Below, piece after piece: positions 6,192-29,502 of a stretch of DNA of 36,181 bases. Each line of letters begins with the position of its first letter. Position 1 is the first letter of the stretch. Below the pieces are notes generated by a model that was not told the DNA's origin, did no database searches, and saw nothing but the letters and a program-made list of their open reading frames with translations. Made by a program: the position numbers and the translations under genes. The stretch is from a virus, in the IMG/VR virus record IMGVR_UViG_3300025138_000136, positions 1-36,181 of that record; one strand, written 5' to 3'.

Positions 6192-6566
6192 ATGCCTAAA
6201 GATACACAAGTAAATGAATTAGAAAGATGCCGCCCTTGGATAGAGGCGGCTTTGGAGTATAGTGGTGGTACACATAGCTTTGAGGATGTGGCAAAAGGTA
6301 TACTTGATGGGAGTATGCAGTTGTGGCCTAGCCCAAGGGGGTGCATTGTTACAGAAATTGTGATATATCCTAGAAAAAAGGCGTTGAACGTGTTTTTAGG
6401 CGGTGGTGAGCTAGATCAGTTGTTAGATATGCACAATGATGTTACAGATTGGGCAAAGAGCTATGGATGTGAAGCTTTGACGATTACAGGTCGTTTTGGA
6501 TGGAAGAAACCTTTGAAGGCGCATGGTTGGAAGCCATTGCACGCTTCATTTCAAAAGGAGATATAA
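6192..6566 (+). CDS. GNAT-like fold phage protein
   Basis: The protein has 124 residues. The pattern of an N-terminal helix (RCRPWIEAALEYSGGTHSFEDVAKGILDG), then strands (LWPSPRGCIVTEIVIYPRKKALNVFLGGGE), then a helix with CEALTITGRFGWKKPLKAHGWK, resembles small GNAT-fold proteins found beside the ejection-protein genes of T7-like and marine podophages. In that family the acetyl-CoA loop is usually degenerate, and it is not convincing here either. The protein may therefore be a structural or assembly factor rather than an active acetyltransferase. The start abuts the preceding stop. The following gene begins 2 bases after this stop. Confidence 0.6.
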   Translation: MPKDTQVNELERCRPWIEAALEYSGGTHSFEDVAKGILDGSMQLWPSPRGCIVTEIVIYPRKKALNVFLGGGELDQLLDMHNDVTDWAKSYGCEALTITGRFGWKKPLKAHGWKPLHASFQKEI

Positions 6567-7708: not shown

Positions 7709-9442
7709 ATGATTAAAGATTATGATTTTAGAGATTTTGCAGGCGCAGCAGCAAGCGCGTTTAACTCATTAAGGTTTGAGCCTGATAAGGGCCTTAATCA
7801 AGCGTTGCAGACAATACAGCAGCAACGCACAGCAAATAGAGCAAAAAATAAGACTGTTGAGTATCTTAAAGGTTTAGGTACGCCTATGGGTGACAGGCTT
7901 GCTGGCATGGTTGGCACAGGTCAGCTAAAAGGCTCTCAAGCATATGGCATGATGTTTGATATGGAAAAAGAGGCTAGGGCTGAAGAAAGAGCTAGAAATT
8001 TAGCTACTTTTCAAAACCAGCTTGCTATGGATAGAGATGCAGCTAAACCTGTTAAGCCTACTAATACGCAAGTTCTTCATAATATGGCTTTAGCAGCAGG
8101 CCATCCTGAAGGCTCAGATAAGTACAATCAAATAGTCTTTAAATTACCAGCAGAAAAACAATTGTCGCCAGATTTGCAACAGAGAATAACTTTAGCAGAC
8201 ACATTAGGCTATCCTGAAGGATCACCTGAATATAGAAATCTTGTTTACGATGATAAGATGCCGATAACTATGCCAAATAATATGGACGCAGAACTTTTTA
8301 ATACATTTCCTGATCAAACTAAAAAAGCGATACTTGCTACTGGCGCTGCTGGTATAAATTATCCTGTTGACGGTACTAAGGCAGAGCAACAAGCTTATCT
8401 TGGTGCGGTAATGAAAACATCTGATGAGCTTTCTAAAGAAGGTACTATTTTAGACCCTAGTGATCCTCTTTATAAACAGTATGTCACCTCTGCTTTTGGT
8501 AAAGACTTTGATATGAATCAAGGTATAGGCGGTCTTATTATTAAGAAAAAAGATAATACTATTGACTTTGTTCCGTTTAGCGGTGGCGGTGTTGACGTTG
8601 ATGTTACTGTCGGCACTGGTGATGGCAATCAGGACGTACCGCCAGATGAACCAGAATTAATAAAACAAATGGCTAAAAAGGAAATGGTTCCAGAGTACGC
8701 TGATCCTAGTGATCCTAGCAAGGGTTTAAAAAGAAATCCTGCTACTAATCAAATAGTATTTAAACCAGCAGAAGGCTCTAAGCTAGAATTTGATCGCAAA
8801 AAAGAAGAGTTAGAAAGAATACAACGTAATTTTTCATCTAAAATGACAGATGACATGAAGGTTGATAATATAACATTTTCTGCCAATAGAATTTTAGATG
8901 TTCTTGTTGGTGAAGTTGATTCAAAAACAGGGAAAAGGCCCTCTGAAAAAGATGCTAAATATAATAAATCAGGTTTTGCAAGATTGTTTACACTTGACCC
9001 ACCTGAAGCTGGTGTTAGGGGTAAAGCTTTTGGTGAGTTAGGAATAGCTTCATCTACAGAAAGTGTAAGTGTTGCAAACTTTCTTCAAAATATAGTAGCA
9101 AATATTGGTTTTGATAGATTAAGTTTGATGAGGGAGCAATCTGCTTCTGGTGCAGGACTTGGGCAAGTTAGTAATTTAGAATTAGGTCAATTAAATAACT
9201 CTATGAGAGCATTGCAGCAAAATTTAGAGCCGAAAGATTTAGCTTTTAACGTGGAGCAAGTAGTTAAAATTTATAGTAAAATCTTAAATGACCCAATAGC
9301 TAGAGCAGTAAAAGAAGCATCATCAGTAGAAGAGGCGCAGAGATTAATTAAGCTTCATCAAGATGTGGAGGCTGGATTTACTAAAGATAATATTATTTTT
9401 AACGGTGGCGATGGTAGTTACACCATTAAAGTAAAGGAGTAG
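7709..9442 (+). CDS. Large internal virion/ejection protein candidate
   Basis: The protein has 577 residues and is mostly hydrophilic and helical. The N-terminal 100 residues (DYDFRDFAGAAASAFNSLRF and the following Gln-rich helix) are followed by a region with repeated phrases on LGYPEGSPEYRNL and AGHPEGSDKYNQI, around residues 130-175. A long helical C-terminus runs from about residue 350. No signal peptide or enzymatic motif was seen. It sits between the Ala/Gln-rich protein and the second large internal protein, upstream of the portal, which is where ejection proteins occur in this genome type. The two PEGS phrases are similar to motifs in other marine phage internal proteins. Confidence 0.6.
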   Translation: MIKDYDFRDFAGAAASAFNSLRFEPDKGLNQALQTIQQQRTANRAKNKTVEYLKGLGTPMGDRLAGMVGTGQLKGSQAYGMMFDMEKEARAEERARNLATFQNQLAMDRDAAKPVKPTNTQVLHNMALAAGHPEGSDKYNQIVFKLPAEKQLSPDLQQRITLADTLGYPEGSPEYRNLVYDDKMPITMPNNMDAELFNTFPDQTKKAILATGAAGINYPVDGTKAEQQAYLGAVMKTSDELSKEGTILDPSDPLYKQYVTSAFGKDFDMNQGIGGLIIKKKDNTIDFVPFSGGGVDVDVTVGTGDGNQDVPPDEPELIKQMAKKEMVPEYADPSDPSKGLKRNPATNQIVFKPAEGSKLEFDRKKEELERIQRNFSSKMTDDMKVDNITFSANRILDVLVGEVDSKTGKRPSEKDAKYNKSGFARLFTLDPPEAGVRGKAFGELGIASSTESVSVANFLQNIVANIGFDRLSLMREQSASGAGLGQVSNLELGQLNNSMRALQQNLEPKDLAFNVEQVVKIYSKILNDPIARAVKEASSVEEAQRLIKLHQDVEAGFTKDNIIFNGGDGSYTIKVKE

Positions 9443-19525: not shown

Positions 19526-19566
19526 TTGACATATCGTTTGATATCGAATAAATGCTTAACTGTCAA
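19526..19566. promoter_or_regulatory. Divergent early promoter region
   Basis: Leftward: a perfect TTGACA (complement of 19561-19566), a 17-base spacer and TATCAA (complement of 19538-19543). Rightward: TTGACA at 19526-19531 and TTGATA at 19538-19543, with weaker -10 candidates. The arms TTTGATA (19537) and TGTCAAA (19561) form an inverted repeat, so both promoters overlap and a regulator bound here could control both. The promoter calls are by consensus only. Confidence 0.5.
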
Positions 19567-19587: not shown

Positions 19588-19794
19588 ATGAAAAATAGAC
19601 AAGAGGTAAAGCAACAATGCTTACGGCTAAGTAGTAAAACTACTATGATGCTAGACAGTATTAGCAGCTATACACGCATACCTAAAGGCGCATTAGCTGA
19701 TATGGCTATGCAGGATTATCTATCTGAACAAATCAAAAACCTTAATATTAATATTGAGGATAATGATGAGGAGCTAATAGAAACAGATGGTTAA
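19588..19794 (+). CDS. Small putative DNA-binding regulator
   Basis: The protein has 68 residues: MKNRQEVKQQCLRLSSKTTMMLDSISSYTRIPKGALADMAMQDYL, with an acidic tail. A short strand (QCLRLSSKTTMMLD) followed by two helices (with IPKGALADMAMQDYL as the second) resembles the ribbon-helix-helix fold of small regulators, but this is a weak match. As first gene of the rightward early operon, just after the divergent promoter, a transcriptional regulator would fit. The site GAGAGGCG lies before the ATG. Its stop overlaps the next start. Confidence 0.5.
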   Translation: MKNRQEVKQQCLRLSSKTTMMLDSISSYTRIPKGALADMAMQDYLSEQIKNLNINIEDNDEELIETDG

Positions 19795-20197
19795 CAGTCG
19801 TCAAAAGGGGGCAACTTTTGAGAGAGACATTTGTAGAGACTTACAACTTGATTTAAACATCAAGGGTTTCGTTAAAAGGGATATAGAGCAGTACAGGACG
19901 GCAGATAGAGGAGACATATTAATAGAGGATGATAGTTTTCCATACCTTATAGAGTGTAAGAGGTATAAATCAGGAAACACTTATTCAGACGCTTGGTGGC
20001 AACAGGTAGAAAGAGCCGCAGAGAACATGAAGAAAGAACCTGTTTTAGTTTATAAGTTTGATAGACAACCTGTTACAGTAGTTATGCGATTAGAACACTT
20101 AATGAAAGATGATGCGCTGCATGAAGAGAAGGTAAGAATGGATTGGGAAGCTTTCTGTTACATAGCTAGGGAGAACTGGAATGACTTACGGAACTGA
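19787..20197 (+). CDS. PDDEXK nuclease, Holliday-junction resolvase-like
   Basis: The protein has 136 residues. The N-terminal helix NSRQKGATFERDICRDL carries Glu12. A basic strand follows, then TADRGDILIEDDSFPYLIECKRY, with Asp43 and Glu56-x-Lys58 forming the PDDEXK catalytic set seen in archaeal Hjc and phage endonucleases. The later WWQQVERAA helix is typical of the family. Such enzymes resolve branched DNA during recombination and before packaging. The genes before and after overlap it by several bases, in one early operon. A restriction-like or recombination-endonuclease role cannot be separated by sequence alone. Confidence 0.75.
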   Translation: MVNSRQKGATFERDICRDLQLDLNIKGFVKRDIEQYRTADRGDILIEDDSFPYLIECKRYKSGNTYSDAWWQQVERAAENMKKEPVLVYKFDRQPVTVVMRLEHLMKDDALHEEKVRMDWEAFCYIARENWNDLRN

Positions 20198-20492
20198 ACC
20201 GCATTTTCTTTATAAAAGAGGAGATGCAGAAACTAGTGCGGAAGCTGCATATGCAGTAGATACTACCAAATTAGAACAGATGGTGCATGACGCAATCATT
20301 AATTATGGTGAGGCAGGATGTATATCTGATATGCTTTTAGATCAATTTGAGAGGTATCCATATTCATCAATTACAGCCAGATATGCAGCTTTAGAAAGAA
20401 AAGGTTTTATTTACAGAAACGGAGATAAAGCTAAAGGTAGAAGCGGCAGAAACCAATTAATAATGAGAGCAATAAAGCATAAGAAAGGCTAA
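20181..20492 (+). CDS. Winged-helix-like conserved phage protein
   Basis: The protein has 103 residues. The start has YKRGDAETSAEAAYAVDTTKLEQMV. The second half (SDMLLDQFERYPYSSITARYAALERKGFI, then KAKGRSGRNQLIMRAI) resembles a winged helix with a basic wing. I associate this family with marine phage replication regions, where its function is untested. It starts inside the previous gene. Its last four codons AAG AAA GGC TAA double as the ribosome-binding leader of the exonuclease gene. Confidence 0.65.
   Translation: MTYGTEPHFLYKRGDAETSAEAAYAVDTTKLEQMVHDAIINYGEAGCISDMLLDQFERYPYSSITARYAALERKGFIYRNGDKAKGRSGRNQLIMRAIKHKKG
20483..20492 (+). promoter_or_regulatory. Early-gene leader GAAAGGCTAA (first of seven exact copies)
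   Basis: The decamer GAAAGGCTAA precedes early start codons on both strands. Exact copies lie at 20483, 21340 and 22059 on the + strand, and at 24886, 25218, 25606 and 25937 on the minus strand (lowest coordinate given). A one-base variant (GAAAGGTTAA) lies at 26887 and a degenerate copy near 25353. Extended as AGAAAGG, it complements a 16S 3' tail of CCTTTCT, typical of alphaproteobacteria. Late genes do not use it. Confidence 0.7.
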
Positions 20493-24111: not shown

Positions 24112-24156
24112 AATACTAATAATAATAATAATTACTTTAGTATATTATTATTATTA
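24112..24156 (+). repeat. 45-bp direct repeat, copy A (AT-trinucleotide hairpin)
   Basis: These 45 bases are identical to 27527-27571. The element has five AAT units, the short palindrome TAC-TTTA-GTA, then ATT units, giving a long hairpin with one bulge. Copy A has six ATT units and runs into the gene start at 24182. Both copies lie 25-40 bases upstream of a rightward gene, which suggests a shared promoter, operator or replication element. Confidence 0.75.
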
Positions 24157-25965: not shown

Positions 25966-26883
25966 TTAAGACGCTACTTTTGTTACTGTTATGGGTAGGT
26001 TTCTTTGCTCTGTGTTTTGTTCAGCAGCTTCTAAAATGAATGTTGCAGCTTTGTCAGCAGCGCTTGCAGCTTTTTGTATAGCATCAGGTTTACTCTTTAG
26101 ACACTCAATCCAACTGTTTAAATATTTAGCATGATCTGCGCGTGGTTCAGCGTCAATTTTAGTCAGACCTGATAAAATGGCGCTTGTTAATTCTGCTATC
26201 AATTCTTCAAAAGCATAACCATCAGAGCCAAAGCGAGTACCAAATTTGCGGTCTAATCTTTCTTTGCTGCCCGTCCAATGTCCTAACTCGTGAAACAGTG
26301 TGCCGTAGTAGCCCGAAGCATTTTTAAACTGCTCTTTGCTTGGCATATTAATAGTGTCGTTTGAAGGTCTGTAATAGGCGCTATTTGCGTCTTCATTTAC
26401 AAATTTAGCACCTGATAATTGAGCAAGGTTTTCTGCGTCAATAACGTCTGACCAATCCTGATTTAGCTTCTTTTCTTCAGGTAAAAAATCACCTTTCCAA
26501 CCTTTAACATATTGAGAGTTAAAAACAGGCCAAGATTTCCATTTAGGATAAAGTTTTTCTTCACCTGTTTTCTTATCTTCATATTTAATAAGTGACCAGA
26601 AAACAATTCTTATGCCTTTACCTTTAGCACCTTCTAATTCGTAGCCTAAACTTTGCCATTGATTATAGGTTGCAAAAACAGGTGAAGTATAACCTCTAGC
26701 AGCCATAAGCATTGATAAATTAATTCTGTTAATACCGCTATATTGATGCTTTCTAGCACTCATTGGTTGATTGTGCTGCAATACATTTACCCAAGGTTTT
26801 ACCCAATTGATGCCCGCTGTAGCCATGTCTGAAGTAACTCTAGAAGTTATTTCGTGCATTACTTGTGTTGTCTTTTTGTCCAT
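25966..26883 (-). CDS. ArdC-like antirestriction protein with zinc metallopeptidase motif
   Basis: The protein has 305 residues. The N-terminal half has the ArdC-type DNA-binding pattern (TAGINWVKPW, YSGINRINLSMLMAARGY, ATYNQWQSLG, then KGKGIRIVFW). The C-terminal half has the zincin motif HELGHW (His198, Glu199, His202) and a downstream FEELIAELTSA that can supply the third ligand. ArdC proteins protect incoming plasmid or phage DNA from restriction and bind single-stranded DNA; the length fits the family. It is first in the leftward operon, behind a GAAAGGTTAA leader and the promoter region at 26939-26976. The target of the peptidase is unknown. Confidence 0.85.
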   Translation of the reverse strand: MDKKTTQVMHEITSRVTSDMATAGINWVKPWVNVLQHNQPMSARKHQYSGINRINLSMLMAARGYTSPVFATYNQWQSLGYELEGAKGKGIRIVFWSLIKYEDKKTGEEKLYPKWKSWPVFNSQYVKGWKGDFLPEEKKLNQDWSDVIDAENLAQLSGAKFVNEDANSAYYRPSNDTINMPSKEQFKNASGYYGTLFHELGHWTGSKERLDRKFGTRFGSDGYAFEELIAELTSAILSGLTKIDAEPRADHAKYLNSWIECLKSKPDAIQKAASAADKAATFILEAAEQNTEQRNLPITVTKVAS

Positions 26884-26938
26884 TTTTTAACCTTTCTTTG
26901 ATTCGTTATATATATATTTAAACAGTATTTTTAATATC

Positions 26939-26976
26939 AGGTCAAATGCTTTTAATATTATAGAGATATTATAGCA
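26939..26976 (-). promoter_or_regulatory. Leftward promoter candidate for the ardC operon
   Basis: The minus strand shows TGC-TATAAT (complement of 26968-26976), an extended -10, with a second TATAAT about 11 bases further downstream. A TTGACC with 17-base spacing to TTTAAA lies below it. Transcription starting near 26960 would leave a leader of about 75 bases before ardC. Consensus match only. Confidence 0.45.
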
Positions 26977-27065
26977 ATATTAGGGAAGCGGCATTTTATG
27001 ACCTAAGTATAGCAAAAGGCCTTTCTGCTCTCAGTGAGCTTCTTAGAGCCTCTCAGAGCATAGCA

Positions 27066-27289
27066 ACTGTTTAGTATACAATTGTTTTCAATTGTTTAGC
27101 ATTGTTTGGTTTTTGCCAAAACGCGACACGACAAACAGTAAAGCACAAGGTCGCGCAGGGGCGCGCGCAAATAGTACAATGCGAAACAAAGAGCAACCTA
27201 TTGTTCGCCATTGTTTAATATTGGTTAAACTTAGAACAATACCCCATGTTTGACTCTGGTTGTACTGTCTTTGACTAACTGCAAACAAT
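27066..27289. repeat. Phased ATTGTTT repeats (iteron-like)
   Basis: ATTGTTT occurs at 27081, 27091 and 27101, exactly 10 bases apart. A second triplet, ATTGTTC, ATTGTTT and ATTGGTT, lies at 27200, 27210 and 27220. Inverted copies lie at 27234-27240 (GAACAAT) and 27283-27289 (AAACAAT). Weaker ones are ACTGTTT at 27066 and AAACAGT at 27133. Spacing of one helical turn suggests a protein binding on one face of the DNA. Confidence 0.75.
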
Positions 27290-27317
27290 GAGATGCAACG
27301 GTATACAATAAATTTGA

Positions 27318-27347
27318 CCCCCCCCTGCCTAGCCCACCCCCACCCCC
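27318..27347 (-). other. G-quadruplex-capable tract
   Basis: On the minus strand there are four G-runs of 5, 5, 3 and 8 bases with loops of 1, 1 and 7 bases. This meets the usual G-quadruplex rule (runs of at least 3, loops of 1-7). On the + strand it is a C-rich tract able to form an i-motif. It stands out in an AT-rich genome. Confidence 0.7.
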
Positions 27348-27396
27348 GACTTTAATACTACATTCCCACACACAAAAATTTGTGTTATAGGATTTT

Positions 27397-27456
27397 TGGG
27401 TGCTGTTTAATAAAATCTAACCTCCCTGAGTTTTATTAACTTTCTCGCAGCACCCA
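27397..27456. repeat. Large imperfect inverted repeat
   Basis: The outer arms TGGGTGCTG (27397-27405) and CAGCACCCA (27448-27456) match exactly. Inside them GTTTAATAAAA pairs with TTTTATTAAC with one bulge. A smaller palindrome, ACACAAA-AA-TTTGTGT, lies just upstream (27370-27385). The structure lies between the C-rich tract and the AT-trinucleotide arms. Confidence 0.6.
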
Positions 27457-27489
27457 CCCCCACTAATAAAACTAATATTATTAGCTTTT

Positions 27490-27573
27490 ATTATTATTAT
27501 TAGTTATACTTCTGCGTACAAATACAAATACTAATAATAATAATAATTACTTTAGTATATTATTATTATTAGT
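27490..27573. repeat. AT-trinucleotide arms including 45-bp direct repeat copy B
   Basis: Bases 27527-27571 are identical to 24112-24156. Here a third arm is present: ATTATTATTATTAGT occurs at 27490-27504 and again at 27559-27573, and its exact complement lies between them at 27530-27544. The middle arm can thus pair with either flank, giving two mutually exclusive hairpins 36 bases upstream of terS. Confidence 0.75.
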
Positions 27574-27608
27574 TGAAGTACGGGGCGAAGTAATAATATG
27601 AGGAAAGC

Positions 27609-28103
27609 ATGGCAGGCAGACCAAAATTCAAAAAAGCTATTGCAGAGCTAGATAAGCGTGGTGGGGTTGAGACTTTGCAGCAGGAGTTACTTGCAGGCAA
27701 AACTATACCTATGATTGCTAAAGAGCTTGGGTTAGATCGCGGTTACTTTAGGCGTAACATTGTGAAGAGCGAAAAGTATGGTAACGCCATACGCGAGATA
27801 GAGCATCAAGTTGCAGATGCTCATGCTGATGCAGCTTTTGATATGTTAAGCGATATTAAGGATAGGCGTGATGTTGAGGTTGACGAGGCGTTAAACGGTA
27901 AGAACAGCCGTGACGTTAGCGAGGCAAATGTTAATCAGGTTGATATTGGCATTGCGAAGGGTTTAGCGCAGCAGCATAATTTTATAGCTTCATCTTTAAA
28001 CAAAAATCGTTATGGTAGCGGTAGTCAACAAAACATCCAGATTAACATTGGTGATTTGCATTTAGATGCGCTGCGTAAGATGAAGGTTATTGACCATGAA
28101 TGA
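27609..28103 (+). CDS. terS: Terminase small subunit
   Basis: The protein has 164 residues. Residues about 33-52 (TIPMIAKELGLDRGYFRRNI) form a helix-turn-helix, as in DNA-recognition parts of small terminases. The middle is helical (oligomerisation) and the C-terminus (QNIQINIGDLHLDALRKMKV) probably contacts the large subunit. AGGAAAGC lies directly before the ATG. Its stop overlaps the terL start. It would bind the packaging site and load the large subunit. The assignment rests on the HTH, size and adjacency to terL. Confidence 0.8.
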   Translation: MAGRPKFKKAIAELDKRGGVETLQQELLAGKTIPMIAKELGLDRGYFRRNIVKSEKYGNAIREIEHQVADAHADAAFDMLSDIKDRRDVEVDEALNGKNSRDVSEANVNQVDIGIAKGLAQQHNFIASSLNKNRYGSGSQQNIQINIGDLHLDALRKMKVIDHE

Positions 28104-29502
28104 CTTATCTCAGAATACGATGATTGAGTTTACTCAGCGTTACGCTAGAAAGCCAACATTGTTTGTGAGAGAGGTGCTTGGTGTAGAGCCGTTAGAATAT
28201 CAAGCTGAGTTTCTTGAGGCTATTGCGTCTGGTGAGCGTAAGATTAGTATAAGGTCTGGGCATGGTACTGGTAAGTCAACTGCTGCATCTTGGGCTATGC
28301 TTTGGTATTTTTTGATGCATTATCCTAATAAGGTTGTTGTAACCGCACCAACATCTAGCCAGTTGTTTGATGCTTTATTTGCTGAGATGAAGCGCTGGAT
28401 TAATGAGTTACCCGAAGCGTTTAAGGAAATGTTAAACGTAAAGTCTGACCGTGTTGAGCATACGGCTGCGCCTAGTGAGATGTTTATTTCGGCTAGAACC
28501 TCAAGAGCAGAAACGCCAGAAGCTTTAGCAGGAGTACACTCAGAACACGTTATGTTGATTGTAGACGAGGCTAGTGGTGTGCCAGAGCAAGTATTTGAAG
28601 CTGCTGCTGGTTCTATGTCTGGTCATAATGCTACGACAATTATGCTGAGCAACCCCACTAGATCTAGTGGTACATTTTTTGAGAGCCAGAATAGGTTGGC
28701 TTCTAGTTGGTGGACGAGGCGTTGGTCGTGCGTAGATAGTCCTTTGGTTAGTGATGAGTTTGTTGATGAGATGAAGCTGCGCTATGGTGAAGACAGTAAT
28801 GCCTTTAGAATCAGAGTGTTAGGAGAATTTCCACAGGCTGATGATGATACGATTATACCGTATCACTTGGTTGAGAATGCAATACATCGTGATGTTGAGG
28901 GTGATGAGGACTTGCCTAGTGTGTGGGGTTTAGACGTTAGTAGGTTTGGTAATGACAAAACTGCGTTGTGCAAGCGGCAAGGTTCTATTGTGACTGAAAT
29001 GAGGTCTTGGTCTGGTTTAGATTTGATGCAGACTGTTGGCCGTGTTGTTGCAGAATATGAAAGTTTACAGCCATCTAAGAAGCCTAGAGAAATACTTGTG
29101 GATAGTATTGGGCTTGGTTCTGGTGTTGTTGATAGGTTGAGAGAGCTAGAGTTGCCTGTTCGTGGTGTTAATGTTTCTGAAGCGCCTAGTATGGGTGCTA
29201 CATATTTAAATTTGCGTAGTGAGTTATGGTTTAAGACTAAGGGTTGGTTTGAGGATCGTGCTTGTAAGTTGCCGAAAGACGATCAGTTATTAGCGGAATT
29301 GACAGGTATTAGATATAGCTTTACGTCTAGTGGTAAGATGAAAGCTGAAAGTAAGGATGAGATGCGTAAGCGTGGATTAGCGTCACCTGATTTGGCTGAT
29401 GCACTTTGCTTAACGATGGCAAGTGATGCTGCAACTGCATTATCTGGTGCGTTTAGTAATTGGAAAGGCGACATAAAACGCAATTTGCGTGGCATTGCAT
29501 AA
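28096..29502 (+). CDS. terL: Terminase large subunit (packaging ATPase and nuclease)
   Basis: The protein has 468 residues from the ATG at 28096, which overlaps the terS stop; a TTG two codons earlier is less likely. The ATPase domain has Walker A GHGTGKST (residues 55-62) and Walker B MLIVDEAS (Asp157, Glu158), with a coupling-like segment IMLSNPTR. The nuclease domain has Asp280 (WGLDVSRFG), Asp336 (DSIGLGSG) and Asp435 (DLADAL), the RNase H-like catalytic set. It pumps DNA into the procapsid through the portal and cuts it. It lies far from the portal gene, unlike in most phages. Confidence 0.92.
   Translation: MNDLSQNTMIEFTQRYARKPTLFVREVLGVEPLEYQAEFLEAIASGERKISIRSGHGTGKSTAASWAMLWYFLMHYPNKVVVTAPTSSQLFDALFAEMKRWINELPEAFKEMLNVKSDRVEHTAAPSEMFISARTSRAETPEALAGVHSEHVMLIVDEASGVPEQVFEAAAGSMSGHNATTIMLSNPTRSSGTFFESQNRLASSWWTRRWSCVDSPLVSDEFVDEMKLRYGEDSNAFRIRVLGEFPQADDDTIIPYHLVENAIHRDVEGDEDLPSVWGLDVSRFGNDKTALCKRQGSIVTEMRSWSGLDLMQTVGRVVAEYESLQPSKKPREILVDSIGLGSGVVDRLRELELPVRGVNVSEAPSMGATYLNLRSELWFKTKGWFEDRACKLPKDDQLLAELTGIRYSFTSSGKMKAESKDEMRKRGLASPDLADALCLTMASDAATALSGAFSNWKGDIKRNLRGIA

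Follow-up and report, generated by a model that had tools for sequence, protein, structure and literature searches.

Helically phased AACAAT arrays at a putative divergent promoter pair in uncultured marine phages

The Pho box is built of 7-bp direct repeats that recur every 11 bp and stand in place of the -35 element. Sites of PhoB have been described as direct repeats of 11 bp (PMC2648988), ribbon-helix-helix (RHH) proteins bind 10-bp direct repeats and loop or repress the promoter lying between split arrays, as in ParR/parC (PMC5016525), and at the pac site of SPP1 direct repeats overlap the terS promoters (PMC4737164). The locus described here belongs to a viral DNA of 36,181 nucleotides (IMG/VR record IMGVR_UViG_3300025138_000136), the whole of which is referred to below as the window, and occupies an intergenic gap of 725 bp (26884-27608) that separates an ardC-like gene on the minus strand from terS on the plus strand.

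The locus resembles the ParR/parC centromeres of R1, pB171 and pSK41 in its 10-bp direct repeats, in arrays split around promoter sequence and in a candidate RHH reader; repeats of about 10 bp are accompanied by an encoded protein of predicted RHH fold, assigned through matches with weak E-values and Z under 5. It differs from these centromeres in that the units would lie inside promoter positions -15 to -40, array A has 3-4 units instead of about 10 and the reader is a predicted one; no gene for a ParM-like motor was seen among the proteins searched, which cover part of the ORFs. Pho-box/OmpR-type promoters share with the present locus short direct repeats one helical turn apart, which appear to replace the -35 element at a fixed distance from the -10. 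Unlike in those promoters, the period is 10 and not 11 bp, the word is unrelated, the arrays run to within 2 bp of the -10 and no such regulator was recognised in this phage. The logic of the Pho box would nevertheless be the closest functional analogue if the reader were a host factor. As at the pac sites of SPP1/SF6, direct repeats are found upstream of terS, overlapping its presumptive promoter, and TerS is Sf6-like, but the array also occurs here in phages with another terminase. Phased direct repeats at a fixed spacing, adjoining AT-rich DNA, are likewise a feature of iteron origins, from which the locus is set apart by a word of 6-7 bp in a 10-bp frame, mirrored at two putative promoters, and by the lack of a recognised initiator.

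Layout of the intergenic region and chance tests of its repeats

Relatives of the window were collected by searches with TerL and TerS, which yielded 113 loci, and multiple entries of a single contig were collapsed ahead of the counts. Four groups were defined by the identity of TerS to that of the window (I, 92-100%; II, about 84-87%; III, about 46-51%; IV, 60-66%), and TerL identity is mostly 85-100% across all four. The features of the gap and the genes concerned are listed in Table 1.

Table 1. Features of the intergenic gap and associated genes in the window
Feature	Position	Strand	Remarks
68-aa ribbon-helix-helix (RHH) protein	19588..19794	+	First gene of early operon; leading candidate for array binder (predicted)
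ArdC-like protein (ArdcN + MPTase-PolyVal)	25966..26883	-	First gene of leftward operon
Conserved leader of leftward transcript (TTTTATGACCTA ... CTCAGTGAGC..GCCTCTCAGAGCAT)	26990..27062	-	Common to unrelated phages
Leftward -10-like hexamer TATACT	27073..27078	-	2 bp from array A; identical in 16/16 group I sequences listed
Array A, three 10-bp units, read leftwards (n4)AACAAT	27081..27110	-	Immediately upstream of leftward -10-like hexamer; relatives have 3 or 4 units
Tract between arrays, conserved and GC-rich, with purines and pyrimidines largely alternating	27150..27170
Oppositely oriented unit pair TACAAT, AACAAA, 10 bp apart	27175..27190	-
Array B, degenerate 10-bp units	27200..27229	+	Most relatives have one unit more than the window; no -10 alongside
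Units on the right, sharing the 10-bp frame: CTAAC, AACAAT (27284-27289), GCAAC	27274..27299	+	Group II: two exact AACAAT units
Rightward -10-like hexamer TATACA, terS/late side	27302..27307	+	Offset to AACAAT-type units equals that on the left
C-run and C-rich tract in terS leader	27318..27348	+	G-quadruplex-type motif on minus strand
Structured terS leader: CACA..TGTG hairpin; GGGTGCTG (27398)..CAGCACCC (27455) stem, CCTCCC loop	27360..27455	+	Covaries in group III
TerS	27609..28103	+	First gene of rightward operon; model matches Sf6 gp1 terminase small subunit
TerL	28090..29502	+

A first-pass annotation of the window had described two triplets of ATTGTTT with a spacing of 10 bp. The first of these is exact (27081, 27091 and 27101), whereas the second is degenerate, with ATTGTTC at 27200, ATTGTTT at 27210 and ATTGGTT at 27220 (read as ATTGTTCGCC, ATTGTTTAAT and ATTGGTTAAA, respectively), so that 27210 alone is an exact copy; the spacing within both clusters is exactly 10 bp. 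The remaining description of the surroundings was borne out, as inverted copies are present nearby (AAACAAT occupies 27283-27289, and TACAAT at 27175 and AACAAA at 27185 form another minus-oriented pair with a 10-bp interval), the non-coding gap is the longest in the window and the AT-rich repeats alongside are triplet repeats at 27462-27573.

The word ATTGTTT by itself is not enriched (16 copies genome-wide against 13.4 expected); its clustering is. None of 5000 dinucleotide shuffles of the 725-bp region carried three ATTGTTT at 10-bp spacing, and the same result (0/5000) was obtained for three ATTGTT-N4-ATTGTT pairs and for any 7-mer occurring three times at equal spacing. A lag of 10 is the top lag in 27060-27300, which is also the best place for that lag in the whole genome. 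The repeats of the window are real and non-random. A general excess of 10-bp ATTGTT arrays in viruses was also considered, with at least 119 stretches at 10-bp spacing against 84 at 11-bp spacing; many of the former fall in coding or simple-repeat DNA and the excess is not claimed.

Several other elements of the region were recorded. The terS leader is conserved and structured (fold z-score -5.7), and in group III its stem is rewritten with compensating changes (GGGGTTGC/GCAACCCC, GGGGTCAC/GTGACCCC); a search of Rfam with the region and the terS leader gave nothing at the gathering score and a tRNA search gave none. C-runs on the plus strand at 27318-27348 and 27450-27463 flank the leader hairpin, and the corresponding G-quadruplex-type motif of the minus strand was found in 17/17 group I, 27/27 group III and 6/6 group IV sequences and, by the same pattern, not in group II. 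The Z-DNA-like tract between the arrays is GC-rich in an AT-rich gap; most groups retain it in altered letters, with a length of up to 21 bp in group III. An exact 45-bp copy of the AT triplet repeat is shared by 24112-24156, after the primase-helicase gene, and 27527-27571, before terS; inverted copies occur too, and the minus-strand genes between the two places are flanked by these repeats. Within 27609-29502, a sharp module border separates terS from terL in three relatives (L008, L012 and L026), in which terS has been swapped to about 50% identity with TerL still at 94-96%.

Conserved spacing and register with two outward hexamers

Spacing was counted in 29 sequences with TerS at least about 84% identical to that of the window, comprising 17 of group I (window included) and 12 of group II. 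Pairs of TTGTT at a distance of 10 numbered 52 in group I against 0.2 expected and 25 in group II against 0.1 (77 against about 0.3 in total), and none were found in groups III and IV. A word-free test likewise gave lag 10 as the strongest in groups I and II, and the lag was seen in every sequence. Copy number among the relatives varies by whole 10-bp units; array A has 3 units in the window and 4 in L006, L010 and others, a difference of exactly 10 bp. The comparison with relatives that the first-pass annotation had called for is thus borne out where TerS is similar, the spacing of 10 bp being kept almost perfectly in groups I and II, and fails in the more distant group III (TerS about 46-51%), which is without the array despite a TerL 87-96% identical. 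A blastn comparison of the region with the INPHARED phages gave no match, or chance matches only.

Read outwards, the repeats follow one another every 10 bp as (n4)AACAAT, and 2 bp separate the last of them from TATAC. The leftward register is ACCAAACAAT GCTAAACAAT TGAAAACAAT TG TATACT; the rightward register is GTTGAACAAT GGCGAACAAT TG TATACA in group II and, with weaker units, TTTGACTAAC TGCAAACAAT GAGATGCAAC GG TATACA in the window. This register is equal at both ends in groups I and II. The lock is weaker in group IV, in which the last unit on the left is kept (AACAAT GG TATACC) and the right side carries ACAAT/GCAAC. With the hexamer taken as a -10, the units would lie close to -15/-20, -25/-30 and -35/-40; no sigma-70 promoter with both boxes was found for either hexamer in a simple scan. 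In group I the two hexamers are 224, 234-235 or 243-245 bp apart, except in L102 (283), which carries an extra repeat block; the distance is 263 in 10/11 measured sequences of group II and 264 in 1/11, and 315 in 4/4 measured sequences of group IV. It shifts in steps of about 10 bp as units come or go, and this stepwise change alone is claimed, since groups I, II and IV agree only roughly in a helical phase taken modulo 10.5 bp. The sequence pattern, its exact spacing, the lock to hexamers at both ends and the conservation are established directly. Such a layout has the appearance of divergent promoters with phased sites upstream of them, and is hard to account for by an origin or a packaging site alone.

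The exact pattern AACAATN4AACAATTGTATAC was found in 27 viral stretches, namely relatives of the window and two contigs, L456 and L461, whose TerS and TerL differ from those of the window; HMO-2011-type phages of Roseobacter and SAR116 have a TerL that shares 57-79% identity with the TerL of L461. When groups I, II and IV were used to build a profile of the leader without the array, it matched the isolate CRP-738 (E 5e-11), which has the leader motif and no full array, as well as L456 (E 6e-8) and L461 (E 2e-6). Arrays were not seen in the non-coding ends of the cultured HMO-2011-like phages CRP-9, CRP-13, CRP-603 and HMO-2011. As judged by these matches, the cassette of array and leader is common to unrelated marine phages, as would be expected of a promoter cassette. 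In the Roseobacter phage CRP-738 (L465), the leader motif CTCAGTGGSCCTTATATYGCCTCTCAGAGC occurs at 8716-8807 and 6351-6474, once alone and once as two head-to-head copies.

A putative two-promoter switch and its candidate reader

The repeats are interpreted here, with a probability of roughly 0.62, as operator or activator sites of a divergent promoter pair serving the ardC-side and the terS/late operons, and the locus is most likely not a replication origin but a switch that controls two sets of genes. The first-pass annotation had offered an origin or a master regulatory site; the regulatory part is supported because the arrays are locked to the -10-like hexamers of two putative divergent promoters, and the origin part gained no positive evidence, as the GC skew follows the gene strand and no initiator was recognised among the proteins searched. 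Two observations count against a promoter reading, namely that TATAC is only -10-like and that array B has no neighbouring -10.

From the sequence we infer that the hexamers are used as promoters and that one protein binds the arrays. Each promoter would then consist of a -10-like hexamer (TATACT on the left, TATACA on the right) without a -35 box, in place of which the 10-bp-phased AACAAT units would occupy a single face of the DNA, at about -15/-20, -25/-30 and -35/-40. A small protein would bind the units cooperatively and recruit or exclude RNA polymerase, and the bound protein would switch the ardC-side operon and the terS/late operon together. The middle units (array B and the inverted pair) may let both promoter complexes touch.

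The reader of the arrays is tentatively taken to be the early RHH protein at 19588, with a host factor as a serious if somewhat less favoured rival; TerS or yet another protein would be an unlikely reader. The first-pass annotation had pointed to the small regulator at 19588, which does model as a ribbon-helix-helix protein (mean pLDDT 83), with matches to CopG, Arc, ParD, TraM and AmrZ, mostly RHH. The structure matches have weak E-values and Z under 5, yet most of the top matches are RHH proteins, and the weak E-values probably reflect the modelling of a lone chain without the shared ribbon. A small RHH-like protein is encoded at the syntenic position in groups II, III and IV, and hence in all four groups. 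The predicted strand-face residues Q-C-R are common to groups I and II despite an identity of 34-39%; alignment with Arc suggests Q-L-R as the DNA-facing residues in group IV and different ones in group III (P-L-H, N-M-R, Q-T-H, A-M-H). The residues of the TerS helix-turn-helix follow the array type no less closely than those of the RHH protein, so co-occurrence cannot choose the reader within the family, and no recombinants separating TerS from RHH within the family were found. Outside it, the array and leader stand on contigs with an unrelated terminase, and the TerS of the window is therefore not the general reader; its candidature as binder, raised earlier, is weakened accordingly.

The surroundings of the RHH gene were also inspected. 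Its own promoter carries no array, a point against the favoured reading. Facing TTGACA ... TGTCAA boxes lie at 19526-19566, between the minus genes and the RHH gene, are kept with small changes in all groups examined and could possibly be overlapping head-on promoters. A 103-aa ORF at 20181-20492 corresponds in position to a wHTH regulator of Roseobacter phage CRP-831; this wHTH-like ORF was rejected as reader, as it is absent from the relatives examined, including those that keep the array.

Alternative explanations and biological significance

The alternative that survives best differs only in the reader, the arrays being read by a host transcription factor as a portable, host-responsive promoter cassette of Pho-box type. 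Taken as a whole it is possible, though on the doubtful side. To our knowledge, no host motif fits AACAAT every 10 bp. The module is common to unrelated marine phage types, a search of the two HMO-2011-like contigs that carry it (partial, 7.5 and 13.3 kb) revealed no RHH gene and PhoB sites are likewise built of direct repeats, every 11 bp (PMC2648988), all of which would suit a host factor. Against it, group III is without the array despite a TerL up to 96% identical, and the only match to a cellular contig is a Rhodobacteraceae bin.

A pac/cos site at which TerS would initiate packaging, on the model of SPP1/SF6, appears quite unlikely, even though repeated elements do lie just upstream of terS, the TerS model matches Sf6 gp1 and the TerS helix-turn-helix is near-identical in groups I, II and IV, which have AACAAT units, and different in group III, which has none. 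The array does not always accompany the same TerS, being found with the leader in phages with unrelated TerS and TerL, and the arrays fit the leftward operon as well, an operon without a part in packaging. The region does contain numerous contig ends, scattered over several hundred bp around C-runs and repeats with no fixed physical end; a clean genome end in the gap was considered, and the scattered ends were taken as assembly breaks. By analogy with SPP1, a dual role in promoter control and packaging is possible.

A replication origin, with the phased words as iterons for a phage or host initiator and the flanking AT-rich triplet repeats as unwinding element, is improbable: in-phase direct repeats do adjoin AT-rich repeats in the longest non-coding gap and groups that have the array differ in their replication genes from groups that lack it, but the units are locked as mirror images to -10-like hexamers at both ends, the GC skew has no switch of its own, no initiator family was matched among the proteins searched, small ORFs being without assignment, and group II keeps the arrays but has no AT triplet repeats.

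Within the favoured reading of a divergent promoter switch, a more far-reaching and rather unlikely version may be considered, in which the locus would be a portable cassette acting as a master switch in marine phages. A regular, ParR-like helical assembly of a minimal RHH protein (or a shared factor) would form on the 10-bp units across the two promoters, over a distance of 224-315 bp that varies mostly by whole turns, and would set both operons at once, and the cassette would move between unrelated phage types independently of their terminases.

Regulation in the abundant uncultured marine phages is almost unknown. The locus offers a precise and testable promoter architecture, defined by its register, unit number and a candidate regulator, which many contigs preserve and which recurs in two unrelated phage types. 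Should the RHH protein be the reader, the ardC-side and late operons would be governed by a simple switch made of a 68-residue protein and a series of 10-bp units, which would also provide a natural system for the study of cooperative phased binding.
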